This document shows positions 1,438 to 7,867 of a DNA stretch of 8,262 nt, piece by piece. The stretch's first letter is position 1; each line of letters starts with the position of its first letter. The position numbers and the translations under genes are program-made. A model generated the notes under the pieces. It was not told where the DNA came from. It worked only from the letters and a program-made list of their open reading frames with translations, and ran no database searches. The DNA comes from an uncultured Prevotellaceae bacterium (GTDB lineage: Bacteria > Bacteroidota > Bacteroidia > Bacteroidales > Bacteroidaceae): contig OMXX01000139.1 of NCBI GenBank assembly GCA_900315105.1, positions 1-8,262 of the forward strand, given 5' to 3'.

Positions 1438-1992
1438 TTAGAAGTCATCTATGATTTTTGATTGATGGTTCCTGCCATTTATGTAGTCATTAAACTCAGC
1501 ATGAGTAGACCAATTATAAGGATATGTAAGCATTGTTTCGTCCATCAACATATAGCAATAGATAGAACCAAGGCCAGTATCAACTGTGAACGTGTTTCTG
1601 TTAGACTTGTCTATACCATCAGTGATATTATCTTCTCCGTATTTCGCAGAAAGAATAGATCGAAGATTGTCCATTTCTTCTTTTGCCCTATCATCAGTCA
1701 AACCATCATAGTAAACCTTGGCTCCATATACGGTCTTCGTATCTGGGTCATAGTAAACAGCGATATTCCCCTTCTTGCCTGCGAAGGTGCCGATGAAACT
1801 TCGTGTTCCAACAGGAAGCAACTTACTTATTTTTGCGTTCAATCTGAAACCCTTAGCGATAAGTTTCTTTTGAAATTGTTCAATACTGCCGGTCAACGGA
1901 ATGCCAGCAAATTTCATATGCTCTGTTTGTGCAAAAAGGACTAATGAAAACAGAGACATCAATAACAATAGAAATGCTTTTTTCATCCTCAT
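1438..1992 (-). CDS. Small secreted Bacteroidales protein of unknown function
   Basis: This 184-aa protein has a clear signal peptide (MRMKKAFLLLLMSLFSLVLFA, with cleavage before QTEH), so it should be periplasmic. The mature part starts with HMKFAGIPLTGSIEQFQKKL, a pattern I recognise from uncharacterised Bacteroides and Prevotella secreted proteins, and continues with alternating strands (GTRSFIGTFAGKKGNIAVYY, KTVYGAKVYY) and one amphipathic helix. I know no function for the family. The ATG at 1992 overlaps the TGA of the upstream nitroreductase remnant as ATGA; a second in-frame ATG at 1986 (MKKAF) is an alternative. The upstream stretch is purine-rich (GAGGGGG). It is the first intact gene after the repeat-copy-1 promoter and is followed 8 bp later by the secreted PNPOx-like gene, so the two exported proteins may work together. 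Confidence 0.85.
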   Translation of the reverse strand: MRMKKAFLLLLMSLFSLVLFAQTEHMKFAGIPLTGSIEQFQKKLIAKGFRLNAKISKLLPVGTRSFIGTFAGKKGNIAVYYDPDTKTVYGAKVYYDGLTDDRAKEEMDNLRSILSAKYGEDNITDGIDKSNRNTFTVDTGLGSIYCYMLMDETMLTYPYNWSTHAEFNDYINGRNHQSKIIDDF

Positions 1993-2160
1993 ACCCCCTC
2001 AAATATTTCGTTCATTTCCTTCCGCTTCTTTTCTGCATGTGTACAGTCGGGAGCGATATGTCCGATGGAAACGATAGCCACGGCTTCCTCCTTACTTGAC
2101 CGGTTCGTCCGTGTACTTGCGCACGGAGAAGCGCCTTGTTGCTAAGTCCTTAAATGCCAT
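1989..2160 (-). pseudogene. Nitroreductase miniature, internally deleted and frameshifted (repeat copy 1)
   Basis: My translation from the ATG at 2160-2158 gives MAFKDLATRRFSVRKYTDEP, the N-terminus of a NAD(P)H:FMN nitroreductase with its RRFSVRK phosphate-binding segment. An extra A in GTCAAGTAAGG then creates a stop after 22 codons. In the next frame the sequence resumes as AVAIVSIGHIAPDCTHAEKK and ends NEIFEGV-stop, which is the C-terminal end of the same family. About 110-120 residues that normally lie between (FMN/dimer core) are absent. The second copy at 7622-7792 has the same junction but an open frame. The TGA overlaps the start of the secreted protein gene as ATGA. It cannot encode a working nitroreductase; its remaining role may be only as transcribed leader. 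Confidence 0.8.
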
Positions 2161-2212
2161 AAGCTGATGAATTATTTATTTCAGCCTCAAAGGTACAACT
2201 TTATATCGACAA
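1989..2212. repeat. Long direct repeat, copy 1
   Basis: This block matches 7622-7844 in the same orientation. The 52 non-coding bases 2161-2212 are identical to 7793-7844. The nitroreductase N-terminal part (about 75 bp) differs by two substitutions and one inserted base. The C-terminal part (about 96 bp) differs at about 16 positions. Similarity stops abruptly after TCGACAA on the right and fades a few bases beyond TCCTCAT on the left. Counts were made by eye. Confidence 0.9.
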
Positions 2213-2218: not shown

Positions 2219-2254
2219 GTATTTGGCAAAGAATAATCACTGACGAAAGCAGCA

Positions 2255-2299
2255 AGCCCGTAACAACATTCAACCAAGAGTGAAGCCTTGTATCGGGCT
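2255..2299 (+). repeat. Inverted repeat abutting the 5' end of tRNA-Arg
   Basis: AGCCCGTAACAA (2255-2266) pairs with TTGTATCGGGCT (2288-2299), leaving two central mismatches and a 21-base loop. The right arm ends on the base before the mature tRNA. It could fold in the tRNA precursor near the RNase P cut site, or it could be chance. The rest of the intergenic stretch 2213-2299 shows nothing else I can name, and I found no convincing plus-strand promoter for the tRNA. Confidence 0.45.
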
Positions 2300-2372
2300 G
2301 GTTCCGTAGCTCAATGGATAGAGCGTCTGCCTCCGGAGCAGAAGGTTGCAAGTTCGAATCTTGTCGGAATCA
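2300..2372 (+). tRNA. tRNA-Arg (anticodon CCG)
   Basis: The 73 bases fold as a full cloverleaf. The acceptor stem GGTTCCG pairs with CGGAATC (one G-U pair), with discriminator A. The D-arm is GCTC-AATGGATA-GAGC. The anticodon stem TCTGC/GCAGA encloses loop CTCCGGA, with anticodon CCG at 2333-2335, which reads the arginine codon CGG. The variable loop is AGGTT. The T-arm is GCAAG-TTCGAAT-CTTGT. CCA is not encoded, as is common in Bacteroidetes. It is the only clear plus-strand gene and converges on the DUF262 operon. Such loci, with a tRNA 3' end facing accessory genes, are common insertion points, but no duplicated 3' end is visible here. Confidence 0.96.
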
Positions 2373-2393
2373 CAGAATAGTTTTATGATATTG

Positions 2394-2431
2394 ACTGTCA
2401 CATATAGACTTAATGTGCTATATGCGACAGT
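2394..2431. terminator. 14-bp-arm hairpin between the convergent tRNA and DUF262 operon
   Basis: ACTGTCACATATAG (2394-2407) and CTATATGCGACAGT (2418-2431) are inverted repeats with one mismatch and a 10-base loop. A competing smaller hairpin, CACAT (2399-2403) with ATGTG (2413-2417), overlaps it. The element lies 21 bases after the tRNA and 27 bases beyond the stop of the DUF262-DUF1524 gene, so a bidirectional terminator is the simplest reading. Neither side has a proper T-tract, which is why confidence is limited. Confidence 0.45.
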
Positions 2432-2458
2432 ACACTTACACTAAAAGTTACTATTACA

Positions 2459-4522
2459 TTATTGCTTGTCGCTGATAATGATATCAAGCATTTTTTGCTG
2501 ATGCACTTTCATGTCATCATCATTCCATTCCAATCCAGAACCTCTATCCAATTCTCCTTCGAGTTCTTGGGCATAATTATCCTGGCACATCTGCATCATA
2601 ATCTTAAACTTCAGCGAAGCCACACTTACCTGGTCTGCCTTCTCATCACTATAATGATCCAACTTGGCTTTCGGGCTCCAATTGGAACCTGAACTGTTTG
2701 CGTCAGCACCAATCATGGCGAAGTTGCCAAAGCTGTTGATGGCTTCCGAGCTCAGCAGCTTACCTTCCCCGGCTTTCTCTTGTGGATAGAAATGCTCCAA
2801 CGACTTTCTTGTACGTGAGAAATAGAAGTTGTTGAATGGGTCAAGTTCAAAGTCGCTGCAACCAAGCGAATCGAAGAACTGGCTACGTTCGCGAGAGCCT
2901 TTCTTTGTCTTATTGCCACGCAACTCATCAGAATATTTTCTCCAAAGCTTATAGTCGGTATAGTTGAAGACATACAGAGGTATATCCATTTTGCCCCGCT
3001 TGTATATTTCATTGAATCTTGACTTATAGTCTACGCCGTCTGTTCCAATCTCATCCAAGTTCAATCTGCCGTTTTTCAGCACGACGTTGTCAAAGGCGTT
3101 TGGCAATGGCTGATTTCTTTCATTCAAACATTCCTGATTGAGATAAACGTCATAGAAATACTTGTCGGCGAGCTGACGAAGAAACTGTAGATAATCACGG
3201 TCTGACTGCATACCGTTCTTAAACAAATATGCCATACAGTAAAACAGGTAATTCTTTCGCTGCTTGGGAGTGAATGTTACTTCGAACATCGACAACAGAT
3301 GGACCAGCTCTTTCTGAACGTCTGCATCTTCGGATAAATTTTTTAGATATTGTTTTTTGTTATTTTCTTTGTAAAGACATTGCAGTTTCCATGGATTGTC
3401 ACCCACGGTCTCCTTGTTGTCCAAGGCATGATGGACAATATAATTATCGAGGAAGAACTTTGCCTTGAGCAGGTTGAATGCGAATTGTCGTGCAAAATAC
3501 GCTTTGTCGGCGGCACCGTCTAATGACTTCTTAAATTCATCTAACAGCTCCTTATCGTCGAGGATGAAATCTGAAGGGACAAAACCTTTTTGATCCATCA
3601 TAGTCACTTTCAACACGATTAGCAGAAAATTAGGAAAGTCAATGATGGGCTGAAACTTATCGCTCTGTTCGTAAGCGGTAGATACATTTTGCTGTTCTAT
3701 AGGCTTACCTAACAGACTGATGATAGTTTCTTTTCCATCCGACTCATCGCGCGCTGGTATCTCGGAAAAATCATTGATGGCAAAATCATTAAGATGATCC
3801 CCAAACATTTGTTTTTCAGAAAACGTCTGTTGGATGTAAGCATTCATCTCGCTGCAAGCCTCCCACACCTTACCGAATGTTGCGATGTCGGTCTTGTTCA
3901 AGTGCTTGCTCAGCATAGACTTGACAATCTCATGTTTCTCCAACTGTTCGCCCCGTGAGTTCATCACCTCAAAATAGTGGTTCAGATCGACATCTTTCGG
4001 AACACTATAGTGTATGATATGGACATTATTCAGGAAAAATTGCATGAATTTTTCCCGCTCGTCGTTGCCCACAATATCATTCAAGGCCTTGTTTGCATAT
4101 TGATAGCCGTCTCTGATGCCATTGTCCACCTCTTCACCTAAGTCTGGATAATTATCCAGATGCCTGATAGTCGAGGCTGATCGCTTACGGGCACTGTATG
4201 TCAACTTGTTAAAGACATTGTTGACCCTCATAGCTTTTAGTATGAGATAAATGGTGGTCAGACGCTGTTGACCATCAATGACCTCGTAAACATGATCTCC
4301 ACGGTTGTAGGTTACCAATGTTCCAATGTAGTAAATCGTCTTGTCCGATTTCTTCATTGAGTCATACACATCCTTTATCAATGCGCGAATTTCATCTTCT
4401 TGCCAAGCGTAATTGCGTTGGTAGATAGGTATCAAGTAGGTCTTTGACTCCTGGCCCTGACAATAGATGTCATTGATAGAGCACTCCAAGAGGGGCAATT
4501 CCTTAGCCTTCATATTACTCAT
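2459..4522 (-). CDS. DUF262-DUF1524 protein, GmrSD-like predicted type IV restriction nuclease
   Basis: This 687-aa protein has the full GmrSD-type architecture. The N-terminal DUF262 (ParB/Srx-like NTPase) shows IPIYQRNYAW at residues 31-40, VIDGQQRLTT at 81-90 with the DGQQR signature, and MNSRGEQLEKHEIVKSML at 187-204. A long helical middle follows. The C-terminal DUF1524 His-Me/HNH-type domain shows SLEHFYPQ at 574-581 (His577 the likely catalytic residue) and the partner segment NSFGNFAMIG…NWSPKAK at about 596-620. In characterised relatives (GmrSD, BrxU, SspE) DUF262 hydrolyses NTP and DUF1524 cuts DNA, often modified phage DNA. The annotated ATG overlaps the upstream gene's TAA by 8 bp (ATGAGTAA); the ATG three codons in is an alternative. 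It is the last gene of a three-gene operon. The target modification is unknown. Confidence 0.9.
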   Translation of the reverse strand: MSNMKAKELPLLECSINDIYCQGQESKTYLIPIYQRNYAWQEDEIRALIKDVYDSMKKSDKTIYYIGTLVTYNRGDHVYEVIDGQQRLTTIYLILKAMRVNNVFNKLTYSARKRSASTIRHLDNYPDLGEEVDNGIRDGYQYANKALNDIVGNDEREKFMQFFLNNVHIIHYSVPKDVDLNHYFEVMNSRGEQLEKHEIVKSMLSKHLNKTDIATFGKVWEACSEMNAYIQQTFSEKQMFGDHLNDFAINDFSEIPARDESDGKETIISLLGKPIEQQNVSTAYEQSDKFQPIIDFPNFLLIVLKVTMMDQKGFVPSDFILDDKELLDEFKKSLDGAADKAYFARQFAFNLLKAKFFLDNYIVHHALDNKETVGDNPWKLQCLYKENNKKQYLKNLSEDADVQKELVHLLSMFEVTFTPKQRKNYLFYCMAYLFKNGMQSDRDYLQFLRQLADKYFYDVYLNQECLNERNQPLPNAFDNVVLKNGRLNLDEIGTDGVDYKSRFNEIYKRGKMDIPLYVFNYTDYKLWRKYSDELRGNKTKKGSRERSQFFDSLGCSDFELDPFNNFYFSRTRKSLEHFYPQEKAGEGKLLSSEAINSFGNFAMIGADANSSGSNWSPKAKLDHYSDEKADQVSVASLKFKIMMQMCQDNYAQELEGELDRGSGLEWNDDDMKVHQQKMLDIIISDKQ

Positions 4523-6014
4523 TATAATACGTATTCGATTTAAAAAAGTGCATGAAATTTTTATAAATTCCTTCTTCCTTACCTTTTATGTTTTCCTCAT
4601 TGAGGCACCGGAAAGTGATATCCTCTTTTGATAGTGGCACCAATCTGTCAGCCAAATCACTGAGCAATGTTACAGGATTGTCGGAGGCCTCTATAATCTT
4701 ATACATATTGAACGAGTTCTTTAATGGCCTGCCACTTCTCTCAAGAATGTAATTCTGAGCTGATTGCCATCCAAGATTGGTGTACTGAGCACGGAGCGAA
4801 TAAGCCCAAATGAAAGCATCTACCACGAATTGCTCAAAGAGATTCGTGTCCTCTTGTGTCGGATAGGTAGCCGGACAAAAGCGGTCTACATACAGAAGTA
4901 ATACCGTGTCGAAAAGCAACCTTGTAATTTTGTTGCCAACCCCCTTGTTATAGAATTTGTCAAGCGTATTGACAATAACATTTCCCTTAATGTAGAAGCC
5001 TTCGTACTGGTTGTTGTCCCGGATGTCTTCCAGAATTTTATAGTAATGCTTCGTGTATTCGAAGAAAGGTTTACCGGCAATAATGGGCGAGTTCAACTGA
5101 AAAGCATTCACTTTTCTTGTTCCCGAAACAAAAGGCATAGCCGAAGAGTTGACCAATTCAGCATAGGAATACGCGCTCTTATAGAACTGTGCGAAAGGAG
5201 TATGGGCATACCCTGTGATGCCCTTAAATTTGTAGATGTTGTGCTCGTTAAGACCGTAAGCCCAGTTGCCATTAATCCATTCTTTGATACGGTAGATGTA
5301 GTTGCCAAAAAGAGAGGCCAATTTGGACTGAGGCGCACTTTCCCAGTCATTTACAATCTCTTCTGTTGTCTTTTCGTCAACGTCGGTCATCTCTCTGAGG
5401 TGATAGGCCTTCAACAAGTCGTGGGGATAAAGGGCTTTCCCTCTCGCATTCTGCGAGTCAAAGAACTGGAAGGCTTCAGATTGGTTGTCCGTAATGACAA
5501 CAATCATTTCACACCTCTGCTCTATGAAGTCACGCAAATTCTTCATATCCCTTACATGGTCAACGTTCTCTTTTTCCCCAGGGTTCTTGTAAACCCTGCG
5601 TCTGAAGGCATTTAGATTGTTGGGGATGTTGCGTCGACTGAAAGTATTGTTATATACCGCTTGCTTGAGAAAATTGATTTCTCTCCTTTTCTCATCCGTC
5701 TCCATCTCATAGAGTGCATAAAGCAAGAGAGAGAAGGTGATAGTGCGTTGTTGGCCATCCACGATGTTGTAACATCCATTTTCACTATGTAGGATGAGTG
5801 TGCCCACCCGATAGACTTCTTTGTTGCCGTTCTTGGCCTCGATGATGTCATCAAGCAGTTGTATGGCATTTCGTGCAGTCCATTTGTATGGCCGCTGATA
5901 ATCAGGGATGGTAAGCCTGACATTGTCTATGGATTTATCATCCTTGTCTTTTGAAATTTTCTCATTTAACAGCAAATCACCAATCGTTGTTATTGCTAAA
6001 GTCAAATTACTCAT
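4515..6014 (-). CDS. DUF262 protein without visible nuclease domain (GmrS-like)
   Basis: This 499-aa protein carries a clear DUF262 domain: IPDYQRPYKW at residues 36-45, NIVDGQQRTITF at 83-94 with the DGQQR motif, and a SQNARGKALYPHDLLKAYHL block at 187-206. The remaining 290 residues are helical and aromatic-rich. I see no EHxxPQ motif and no N…K partner of a DUF1524 nuclease, so it probably supplies NTP hydrolysis or assembly but not cleavage. The normal GmrS-type motifs are intact, so it is not obviously decayed. It starts 17 bp after the upstream reader-like gene and overlaps the DUF262-DUF1524 gene by 8 bp, which implies coupled synthesis of two DUF262 proteins, possibly as a hetero-oligomer. 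Both DUF262 genes open with the same nine bases (ATGAGTAAT). A C-terminal domain too diverged to see by eye remains possible. Confidence 0.87.
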   Translation of the reverse strand: MSNLTLAITTIGDLLLNEKISKDKDDKSIDNVRLTIPDYQRPYKWTARNAIQLLDDIIEAKNGNKEVYRVGTLILHSENGCYNIVDGQQRTITFSLLLYALYEMETDEKRREINFLKQAVYNNTFSRRNIPNNLNAFRRRVYKNPGEKENVDHVRDMKNLRDFIEQRCEMIVVITDNQSEAFQFFDSQNARGKALYPHDLLKAYHLREMTDVDEKTTEEIVNDWESAPQSKLASLFGNYIYRIKEWINGNWAYGLNEHNIYKFKGITGYAHTPFAQFYKSAYSYAELVNSSAMPFVSGTRKVNAFQLNSPIIAGKPFFEYTKHYYKILEDIRDNNQYEGFYIKGNVIVNTLDKFYNKGVGNKITRLLFDTVLLLYVDRFCPATYPTQEDTNLFEQFVVDAFIWAYSLRAQYTNLGWQSAQNYILERSGRPLKNSFNMYKIIEASDNPVTLLSDLADRLVPLSKEDITFRCLNEENIKGKEEGIYKNFMHFFKSNTYYNE

Positions 6015-6031
6015 GATTCATCATTAATTTT

Positions 6032-7333
6032 TCAAGCCTCCATCTTACTGTCCCATAGTTCCTCAAGCTTTTGGGCTTGACCCTCAGTGAGGAGTTGTCC
6101 GGAATGGCCCTTGTCCCAGTTGATTTCCGGAAGGTTACTTTTCAATTCTTCCACCGTGATGTGTGGCTGTCCATCAGCAGGAGAGGCATCGAAGCAGTCT
6201 ATGTCGACGTAATATCGCTTCTTGCTGGTCCCTGCCCAGTCCTCACCGAGATAAGGGTCTGAGGTAAATTGCCCGCGAAAGACGATTCCTCTGCCGTCAT
6301 CTCCCAACCGTTCCATATAGAAGCGGTCACCCTTTTTGGCTTTCTCCCATTCATAAATGCTCCAGTTCATGCTGAAGCCATCGTGGTAAGCGCAGGCCTT
6401 TCTGTAATGCTCCAGTTTGAAGCTGCTGATGGTTGGATTCCAGCGGAGAATGTATGTTTTTGGATGTGTGAGATAATCACCAGGTACCCGATCCATGAGT
6501 TGTTTCCAATCCTCATCCGACATTGGGTCGAGGGTAAACTGAGCAAAATCAAGACGATGGATATGCGCATTGCCGGAGGTAGTCTTAAAGAAATCCTCAG
6601 CATCAGTAATCTTCACTCCATCTGACTCACATAGCACAATCTTTTGGCAAACACCCACAAAGCATTTCATGTTAGAAACGAAACGAGCAGAATATTCTTC
6701 TCCCGATGGATCTATAATCTTAGCAGGATCAACCGATGGATAGTCCTCGTAATCCCACTCCACAGATGCAAAGTCCTCGTAAGCCTTATAGGTCCATGCT
6801 TCAGGCTTGGCGTATGGCTGCTGCTGTTTAATATACGTAGGGAATATATGGAAAAGATGTTTTACGCCTTCAATCCCGACATGGTCATCCTGTTGCTCGA
6901 TAACCTTGGCCATGTTGTCAAGCCTGTAGAAAAATGTCTCACGCTCAGCATCATCAGACAAATCGGCAATAGTGTTGCCATCGTTTTGATAGATGAGCAT
7001 CGGCTCACATTGCTTCTTAGCCTCCCTCAGTAGCGCGTAGCATAGCATCACATCCGTCTTTGAGGCAAACTCAGGAATGCTAATAGTGAACACACCACTC
7101 TTCAGCAGTATGCAATCCAGACCCTGCGTAGATTTGCCTTTAACCATGAGTATCGTTCTGCCCTTCTCTTCATCGTCTGGCTCTATATTATGATGCAGCA
7201 CAGGCACATGGAATGTACTGGCGGCATCGCCAATCATACGCTTTAAGTCGATATGACTCTCCACGGCCTGAAAGGCGAAAACATCTGAATTCAATTCCAG
7301 TTGATCAAACTTACGATTGTTATCTGCTGTCAT
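6032..7333 (-). CDS. Two-part protein with C-terminal EVE/PUA-like putative modified-base reader
   Basis: The product is 433 aa, acidic, with no signal peptide or membrane segment. Residues about 294-428 resemble a small module I know from HNH endonucleases and other restriction proteins: YILRWNPTISSF, a central GDRFYMERLGDDGRGIVFRG (about 335-354) followed by YLGEDWAG, then YYVDIDCFD and a final W…GHSGQLLTEGQAQKLEELW. This resembles the PUA-like/EVE fold that reads modified bases; that match is by pattern memory, not a search. Residues 1-290 are unrecognised: a mixed alpha/beta region with ILMVKGKSTQGLDCILLKSG and a helix DVMLCYALLREAKK, then a tyrosine- and aspartate-rich linker near 175-205. 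It is the first gene of the operon, 17 bp ahead of the DUF262 gene. In context it may be the sensor of a restriction-like complex. I am sure of the gene, moderately sure of the C-terminal domain and unsure of the role. Confidence 0.8.
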   Translation of the reverse strand: MTADNNRKFDQLELNSDVFAFQAVESHIDLKRMIGDAASTFHVPVLHHNIEPDDEEKGRTILMVKGKSTQGLDCILLKSGVFTISIPEFASKTDVMLCYALLREAKKQCEPMLIYQNDGNTIADLSDDAERETFFYRLDNMAKVIEQQDDHVGIEGVKHLFHIFPTYIKQQQPYAKPEAWTYKAYEDFASVEWDYEDYPSVDPAKIIDPSGEEYSARFVSNMKCFVGVCQKIVLCESDGVKITDAEDFFKTTSGNAHIHRLDFAQFTLDPMSDEDWKQLMDRVPGDYLTHPKTYILRWNPTISSFKLEHYRKACAYHDGFSMNWSIYEWEKAKKGDRFYMERLGDDGRGIVFRGQFTSDPYLGEDWAGTSKKRYYVDIDCFDASPADGQPHITVEELKSNLPEINWDKGHSGQLLTEGQAQKLEELWDSKMEA

Positions 7334-7380
7334 TGTTTCAATTATTCTGTTTATATACCGAAATTTTCAACAAATTCTTT

Positions 7381-7625
7381 TCAAATGATGGTTATACGGG
7401 GAACGGTGTTCAACCCAAGCGCAATGCAAGTGAGGCAGATGTTTTCCGACACATATCCCGCATTGACAACTCCTATACGAGCCTTCCGTTTCGCAAAGCC
7501 TGCATCAGCGTCACCTGATTGTTCATGGACGGTTTCGGCAGCTGGACATTGTCCTGCGCCTTGCATGATATGGCTGCCATAAGAAAAGCCGCACATGCGA
7601 TTTTTAGAAAGTTCTTCGTCCTCAT
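7381..7625 (-). pseudogene. Remnant of a secreted nitroreductase, internally deleted
   Basis: From the ATG at 7625-7623 the minus strand reads MRTKNFLKIACAAFLMAAIS followed by CKAQDNVQLPKP and LMQALRNGRLV-stop (stop at 7473). This is a signal or lipoprotein leader plus the start of the exported nitroreductase family, which usually continues into an R-rich FMN-binding segment. In another frame, 7479-7381 reads GVVNAGYVSENICLTC then IALGLNTVPRITII-stop. That matches the family's late segment (AGxxSxNxxLxxxxxGLxTVPR). Roughly 100 residues between the parts and about 25 at the C-terminus are missing, and the junction is out of frame. The ATG overlaps the stop of the nitroreductase miniature as ATGA. 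The remnant ends 47 bp before the defence-like operon. Confidence 0.62.
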
Positions 7626-7792
7626 ACCTCCTCAAATATTTCGTTCAAATCCTTACGCTTCTTCTCCGTCTGTGGGCAGTCGGGGGCGATATGGCCGATG
7701 GAAACGATAACCATAGTTTCCTCCTTACTGACAGGTTCGTCCGTGTACTTGCGCACGGAGAAGCGCCTTGTTGCTAATTCCTTAAATGCCAT
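7622..7792 (-). pseudogene. Nitroreductase miniature with open frame (repeat copy 2)
   Basis: The ATG at 7792-7790 opens a 56-codon frame. Residues 1-25 (MAFKELATRRFSVRKYTDEP, then VSKEE) are a typical nitroreductase N-terminus including the RRFSVRK FMN-phosphate segment. Residues 26-56 (TMVIVSIGHIAPDCPQTEKK, then RKDLNEIFEEV) are the typical C-terminal end. A usual member has about 165-190 aa, so the middle of about 110-120 residues, with the dimer interface and most FMN contacts, is gone, yet the join is in frame. It may be a dead relic, a translated leader peptide, or a small protein with a new role. Its last codons contain AGGAGGT directly before the next ATG. It is preceded by a TAnnTTTG promoter box. 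Confidence 0.7.
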
Positions 7793-7819
7793 AAGCTGAT
7801 GAATTATTTATTTCAGCCT

Positions 7820-7827
7820 CAAAGGTA
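7820..7827 (-). promoter_or_regulatory. Bacteroidetes-type -7 box, copy 2
   Basis: The minus strand reads TACCTTTG, an exact TAnnTTTG match, 27 bases before the nitroreductase miniature ATG. Unlike copy 1, the -33 position here (around 7848-7850) is TCA or TTC instead of TTG, so this promoter may be weaker. Nothing like a terminator lies between it and the DUF262 operon, and the region directly before 7333 lacks a TAnnTTTG box, so this promoter may also drive the defence-like genes. Confidence 0.5.
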
Positions 7828-7867
7828 CAACTTTATATCGACAATAATGAACAAAGTATTGAGTAAT

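Follow-up and report, generated by a model that had tools for sequence, protein, structure and literature searches.

TgvAB, described in 2024 from VPI-2 of Vibrio cholerae, is a two-protein type IV restriction system of the GmrSD family that restricts Tevenvirinae phages (PMC11411939). As far as the accessible parts of that report tell, both TgvA and TgvB are required, as are the DUF262 domains of both proteins and the His-Me residues of TgvB, and defence against phages with modified cytosines was lost with the TgvB substitutions H571A and N602A (PMC11411939). The same report gives 1,341 tgvAB hits, Bacteroides fragilis included, mentions homologues in Bacteroidales and places most tgvAB homologues outside the five-gene type I operon (PMC11411939). 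GrwAB is a second two-gene GmrSD-like system (PMC12137116), and a review from 2025 on defence in V. cholerae, in its accessible part, treats modified-DNA recognition by GmrSD-like enzymes as unknown and the two-protein requirement of TgvAB and GrwAB as warranting study (PMC12409362). Published work treats the EVE domain as a specificity module of type IV enzymes and reports that EVE is, in rare cases, fused to GmrSD homologues (PMC7641849). Here we analyzed an 8,262-nucleotide stretch of DNA from an uncultured Prevotellaceae bacterium (contig OMXX01000139.1; hereafter the window), in which a minus-strand operon of three genes at 2459..7333 encodes a TgvAB-type pair and, ahead of it, a separate protein with a predicted EVE-like domain, which we call the reader.

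The open reading frame (ORF) listing bore out the layout given in the preliminary description of this DNA, namely three intact minus-strand genes with a 17-bp gap and an 8-bp overlap. The reader gene (gene 1; 6032..7333, 433 amino acids) is the first of the operon and is followed, after the gap at 6015..6031, by gene 2 (TgvA-like; 4515..6014, 499 amino acids), which overlaps gene 3 (TgvB-like; 2459..4522, 687 amino acids) at 4515..4522. Hidden Markov model searches of the three proteins, proposed in that description as a check, found GmrSD_N (DUF262; 6.2e-31, residues 31–205) and DUF7834 (1.3e-53, residues 217–457) in gene 2, and GmrSD_N (DUF262; 5.7e-34, residues 18–204) and GmrSD_C (DUF1524, His-Me nuclease; 1.2e-5, residues 528–678) in gene 3, with no Pfam match for the reader at E ≤ 1. 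Genes 2 and 3 have the TgvAB-type layout of two adjacent co-directional genes, DUF262 and then DUF262-DUF1524. Among eight sequences including the window's, the columns QR (Q40 R41), DGQQR (D86–R90) and FxxxN (F185/N189) of gene 2 were invariant, as were Q35 R36, DGQQR (83–87) and F184/N188 of gene 3 and its candidate His-Me residues H577, N600, N609, and N614, which were matched to the published residues by motif alone. The comparison used, in place of V. cholerae VC1767/VC1766, a plasmid-borne Vibrio aerogenes pair embedded in a type I locus (gene order hsdR, hsdM, hsdS, DUF262, DUF262/HNH). In Pfam, the first protein of this pair matched DUF262 and DUF7834 and the second DUF262 and DUF1524, and their identities to gene 2 and gene 3 were 32 and 34%, respectively. 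PADLOC matched genes 2 and 3 to its HEC-06, Orf5, and SspE models via short DUF262 stretches, and no system is named thereby. By domain content, motifs, and gene order, genes 2 and 3 are classed as a TgvAB-type pair, an already known kind. The preliminary description had taken the DUF262 plus DUF262-DUF1524 arrangement to be undescribed, a view that could not be kept because it is the published architecture of TgvAB (PMC11411939) and GrwAB is also in print (PMC12137116).

The reader had no counterpart among PADLOC or NCBIfam families. Its AlphaFold2 model had a predicted local distance difference test score of 89.8, and the last ~145 residues (288–433; 6035..6472, minus strand) were predicted to adopt a fold of the EVE/PUA/YTH superfamily, which bears out, as far as a predicted fold can, the earlier remark on an EVE/PUA-like domain in the 433-amino-acid protein. 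W298, W324, Y361, and W366 were invariant in 23 sequences, the window's included, and the Pfam EVE family (PF01878) was absent among the eight families matched at E ≤ 1 by the 23 aligned reader relatives. The predicted fold is that of modified-base readers, and the EVE-like domain may bind a modified base. The N-terminal part (residues 1–287; 6473..7333, minus strand) gave weak fold matches, and we therefore claim no fold for it. An assignment of this part to DUF4299 was unsupported, with no match in 99 genomes nor in the controls, so that absence is not proven.

The nearest sequence found was that of Hallella mizrahii (locus L001), in which the block 2240–7632 is 93.4% identical and all three genes are intact, the proteins showing 95, 91, and 93% identity with those of genes 1, 2, and 3, respectively. 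The ratio of nonsynonymous to synonymous substitution rates (dN/dS) between the window and H. mizrahii was 0.174 for gene 1, 0.154 for gene 2, and 0.141 for gene 3; all three genes are under purifying selection and are more than chance ORFs. The intact frames and these ratios together ruled out chance ORFs and pseudogenes.

Genes 2 and 3 carry the domains and motifs of two-gene GmrSD systems, and the predicted fold at the end of gene 1 is EVE-like. We give an even chance to the reading that the operon encodes a TgvAB-type modification-dependent nuclease pair to which the reader has been added as a recognition subunit. When phage or plasmid DNA enters the cell, the reader would bind a modified base in it through the EVE-like domain and pass the bound site to the DUF262 proteins, whose two DUF262 domains would bind or hydrolyse NTP and thereby license cutting by the His-Me (DUF1524) nuclease domain of gene 3. 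The pair would be the evolutionary core and the reader a portable module recruited to it in one Hallella lineage; in Bacteroidales the module also occurs next to other restriction genes and as part of AddA-like helicase proteins. What we infer for this operon is binding and complex formation, the use of NTP, the cutting step, and defence against phages. The reading is supported by the Pfam domains, the invariant motifs, the EVE-like fold, purifying selection, and the enrichment of DUF262 genes near the reader family.

This enrichment was estimated from relatives of the reader at 104 loci in GTDB species genomes, of which the best 80 were kept and an ORF was identified in 79. At 13 of the 79 loci a DUF262 ORF lay within 5 kb of the reader, always on the same strand, where ~0.29 genes were expected from the rate in 60 genomes (36 with a match; calculated with rounded figures, 80 genes and 60 genomes of 3.0 Mb); because the loci are related and not independent, the value is an enrichment and not a probability. 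The 60-genome sample, like those of 301 and 200 genomes used below, was a draw from a larger group. Since the DUF262 profile was seeded from L001, L002, and L010, these three of the 13 match by construction; Pfam confirmed DUF262 in L002 and L010, L001 is 91–93% identical to the confirmed window proteins, and two of the 13 matches were weak (L021, 1.3e-13; L052, 6.8e-7). An operon-like neighbour was present in 63 of the 79 loci, and 85 of the 129 listed neighbours, from L002–L055, were scanned for domains. The commonest Pfam families among these 85, taken from the best 25 of 114 families with ordinary genes among them, were WYL (9), PDDEXK_1 (8), GmrSD_N (7), and WCX (6), followed by EcoRI methylase, Mrr_cat, Mrr_N, HNH, HNH_5, and NA-iREase1 with five each. 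Two single loci also support the reading: in L010 the reader, a WYL regulator, and a single-chain GmrSD are consecutive, and in L126 (4948–12201) an EVE-like-domain protein, an McrB with a Pfam EVE domain, McrC, and a DUF262 pair lie on one strand. Reader or EVE-like-domain proteins were also seen near an EcoRI-type methylase and a DUF262-HNH gene in L002, L025, L029, L039, L046, L048, and L051. Small proteins that we take to be HIRAN-like recurred near some reader loci.

The distribution of the three genes supplies observations that weigh against this reading. Among the best 80 of the 104 reader loci, all three genes stood together, besides the window, only in H. mizrahii, and a full-length reader was absent beside the pair in all 26 other tandem-pair loci, within the fetched stretches. 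The neighbourhood survey therefore did not yield the conserved synteny of the trio that the preliminary description had named as support for a system; the trio rarely co-occurs elsewhere, an outcome named there as speaking against a system, and the pair itself is of a named kind. When the reader was searched in 200 genomes of the genus, 30 had a match (E ≤ 1e-20), of which only that of H. mizrahii was close and full-length; three were full-length at 33–34% identity and the rest had the EVE-like domain. No DUF262 gene lay within 5 kb at 66 of the 79 reader loci. A conserved three-gene system was thus rejected, as the trio was seen in one lineage and the pair is widespread, and for the same reason synteny does not demonstrate a fixed complex. 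What stood of the earlier interpretation is a GmrSD-family module and a separate EVE-like protein in one operon; the undescribed arrangement and the conserved trio did not stand. In the protein database, gene 3 had eight clusters at ≥87% identity and then a drop to 73% (best 120 listed), and the reader had four clusters at ≥81%, then one at 60%, then 53%; these steps would fit one young partnership.

The occurrence of the pair without a full-length reader beside it, which is the rule, speaks for the main rival explanation, possible but rather doubtful in our judgment, in which the pair is a self-sufficient TgvAB-type type IV system and the reader a separate accessory sharing its operon, such as a regulator, a self-DNA marker, or an anti-inhibitor. 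Both pair genes were side by side in 18 of the 20 best loci by rank, H. mizrahii excluded, none of which had a full-length reader. The two other loci, L123 and L127, are remnants with a shortened first pair gene (L123:7268–7921; L127:7119–7484), which in L123 is fused to an end of the second. The 26 other tandem pairs comprise these 18 and eight loci picked because two DUF262 matches adjoined; only the 18 of 20 therefore informs on how often the pair is a pair. The pair loci were fetched via gene 2, a count that leaves solo relatives of gene 3 aside, and among the 26 the contig end truncates the second gene of L116, that of L119 is short, that of L121 is split, and gene 2 of L175 and of L181 is only distantly related (28–29%). 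Other genes stood ahead of the pair elsewhere, namely DUF6088 (L115), AbiEi (L116, L176), a YhcG nuclease (L177, L178), SLFN_AlbA_2 (L180), and type III restriction–modification genes (L133), and some pairs had no obvious partner gene. The two genes tgvAB alone gave defence in E. coli, according to the accessible text of that report, so that the pair may not need the reader (PMC11411939). The accessory role is opposed by the EVE-like fold of the reader, as EVE is a specificity domain of modification-dependent restriction (PMC7641849, in its accessible part), and by the proximity of the reader family to DUF262 genes, which is far above background.

In a sample of 301 genomes from the family of H. 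mizrahii, that species among them, 84 had a match to gene 2, many of these being distant DUF262 matches only, and gene 3 had 7,882 relatives among 7,997 scored candidates. Among the 20 nearest relatives of H. mizrahii, DUF7834 was found in one, H. mizrahii itself, and the pair is therefore patchy at close range. Relatives of gene 2 occurred on 923 plasmid records, each with its best place below 60% identity, and on two IMG/VR contigs; the IMG/VR scan made with gene 3 gave no relative, yet L081 carries one. In L137 (5624–14293), on a plasmid of Aliarcobacter cibarius, the pair lies between an AddB-like PDDEXK_1 gene and an AddA-like UvrD/PDDEXK_1 gene, with overlapping ends. Spread of the reader on phages or plasmids was considered and dropped, since none of 72,556 plasmid records and 50,697 phage records matched the reader and the IMG/VR pattern scan yielded no relative of it.

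Among the best 80 of the 104 loci, 11 (L001–L011) matched over most of the reader's length, and in seven of them (L003–L009), from the Prevotella lineage, the match lay in the C-terminal part of a long AddA-like protein at 36–51% identity, with ~300 further residues behind it in L008 and L009. UvrD helicase domains were found by scan in L004 and L005; similarity and gene position served to assign the other proteins. Ahead of the L005 protein lies an AddB-like PDDEXK_1 gene, and the other proteins also have a similar gene in front, except in L007, which is a contig fragment. Because seven of the 11 full-length matches are within AddA-like proteins, restriction recognition may not be the original job of the reader. 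Stand-alone readers among the 11 were those of L001 (the trio), L002, L010, and L011; L002 has EcoRI-type methylase and DUF262-HNH genes ~0.8 kb upstream of the reader and WYL downstream, and in L011 the reader is a separate gene behind a UvrD-helicase gene. A WYL regulator was seen in several of L003–L009 and L011, and in PADLOC the L005 helicase matched GajB, reverse transcriptase (RT)-associated-helicase models, and the like. Second genes in L005 (720 amino acids) and L017 (442 amino acids) encode full-length relatives behind AddA-like genes, without DUF262. Distant full-length stand-alone relatives (32–33% identity) were found in L182 (7075–8394), L183 (7319–8659), and L184 (7291–8607), with no DUF262, AddAB-like, or WYL gene in the 16 kb fetched. 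These five further relatives speak against a fixed role of the reader in defence. Of nine stand-alone full-length relatives examined, three were near DUF262, three beside AddA-like genes, and three near neither. The reader loci beyond L001–L011 encode no more than the EVE-like domain, in many cases within a protein of ~280–330 amino acids and in some as the last part of an AddA-like protein.

We consider it unlikely that the reader was displaced from AddAB-like helicase-nucleases with an EVE-like part, proteins of DNA-end processing or defence, and that it stands by the pair through shuffling in a variable region, with little functional meaning. The location of seven of the 11 best full-length matches within a UvrD-helicase protein, mostly with an AddB-like gene ahead, would agree with such shuffling, as would the distances to flanking genes, which differ between the window and H. 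mizrahii, and the three distant relatives without a restriction neighbour. Against it speak the retention of the block 2240–7632 as a unit in both lineages, the purifying selection on the reader (dN/dS 0.17), and the stand-alone readers of L002 and L010, which are also near DUF262 genes. Because of L182–L184, we lowered our confidence in a reader acting as recognition subunit of the pair from slightly better than even to even, and two alternatives were slightly raised.

The mode of action could also differ. In L176 (1601–6900) a pair is flanked by AbiEi and AbiEii, the genes of a type IV toxin-antitoxin locus, an arrangement that would suit an abortive or toxin-like unit that nicks host DNA after sensing, rather than a restriction enzyme. 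SspE, a DUF262-DUF1524 protein, nicks DNA (PMC10952713), GrwAB cultures lysed later and their cells were filamentous (PMC12137116), and with some phages, at high multiplicity, the growth of TgvAB cultures was inhibited or the cultures partly lysed (PMC11411939), each as described in the accessible part of the report. Escapers map to DNA-modification genes (PMC11411939, PMC12409362, PMC12137116, as far as accessible), which speaks for restriction, and we regard an abortive unit as improbable. AbiEi and the pair are present in L116 too, a locus cut by the contig end.

Taken more broadly, and only tentatively, the reader might belong to an undescribed Bacteroidales family of portable EVE-like recognition modules that are plugged into different DNA-attacking machines, including two-gene and single-chain GmrSD, EcoRI-type methylase with DUF262-HNH, Mrr, and AddAB-type helicase-nucleases. 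Such a module would here make a TgvAB-type pair a three-subunit system in which a separate, exchangeable protein determines the target, and in Prevotella would place an AddAB-like end-degrading machine under modification-dependent control.

Outside the system, a tRNA-Arg(ccg) gene (2300..2373, plus strand) lies just 3' of the operon on the opposite strand, and a direct repeat flanks the operon at 1979..2212 and 7612..7844, its copies being 98% identical over a 116-nucleotide part and 85% over a 118-nucleotide part. By impression only, the repeat looks like what is left of an oxidoreductase gene. H. mizrahii has the flanking genes of the window too, at different distances; additional copies of the repeat were seen there, and the tRNA-Arg(ccg) gene has a matching position as well as a second copy ~2.4 kb upstream of the trio. 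Two more neighbouring DUF262 frames, open over 667 and 849 amino acids, were seen on contig C20 of the H. mizrahii genome (G001) at ~2535–5175.

In the literature searched, by titles and abstract openings and with subscription papers mostly outside, we found no description of the trio, of a separate EVE-like reader and a pair in one operon, or of an EVE-like family common to AddA-like helicase proteins. A natural operon with a separate EVE-like protein beside a TgvAB-type pair offers a direct test of whether the target range follows the reader, and the partnership could explain how such enzymes find their modified target. The reader family, which has no Pfam model and occurs near many restriction genes and inside AddA-like helicases, could link modified-base reading with DNA-end degradation.

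Compared with known systems, the window shares with TgvAB two adjacent genes, DUF262 and then DUF262 plus DUF1524, and keeps DGQQR and the candidate His-Me residues, as judged from the accessible part of the report. It differs in that an EVE-like gene stands ahead of the pair and in that the type I restriction–modification embedding of the named system is not seen, no hsd-like ORF being found in the window by the ORF list and Pfam scan; pairs inside or beside type I loci (L136, L081) show 30–34% identity to the window's pair. GrwAB of V. cholerae WASA VSP-II likewise consists of two DUF262 proteins, one with DUF1524, both of which are needed (PMC12137116); compared by the accessible description only, GrwB is described with several further unknown domains, and gene 2 ends in DUF7834. 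Single-chain GmrSD, BrxU, and SspE have the DUF262-DUF1524 architecture of gene 3 typically as one protein, whereas the window adds a second DUF262 protein and the reader. EVE-containing type IV enzymes (EVE-HNH, EVE-McrB) also combine an EVE-type reader with a modification-dependent nuclease (PMC7641849, in its accessible part), but the EVE-like domain of the window is on a separate protein, has an N-terminal part of ~287 amino acids before it, and escapes the Pfam EVE model. The AddA-like helicase proteins of L003–L009 contain most or all of the reader towards their C-terminus, whereas the window has neither a helicase gene nor an AddB-like gene. The novelty of the locus is a separate EVE-like reader that shares an operon with an already known two-gene GmrSD kind, a rare partnership.

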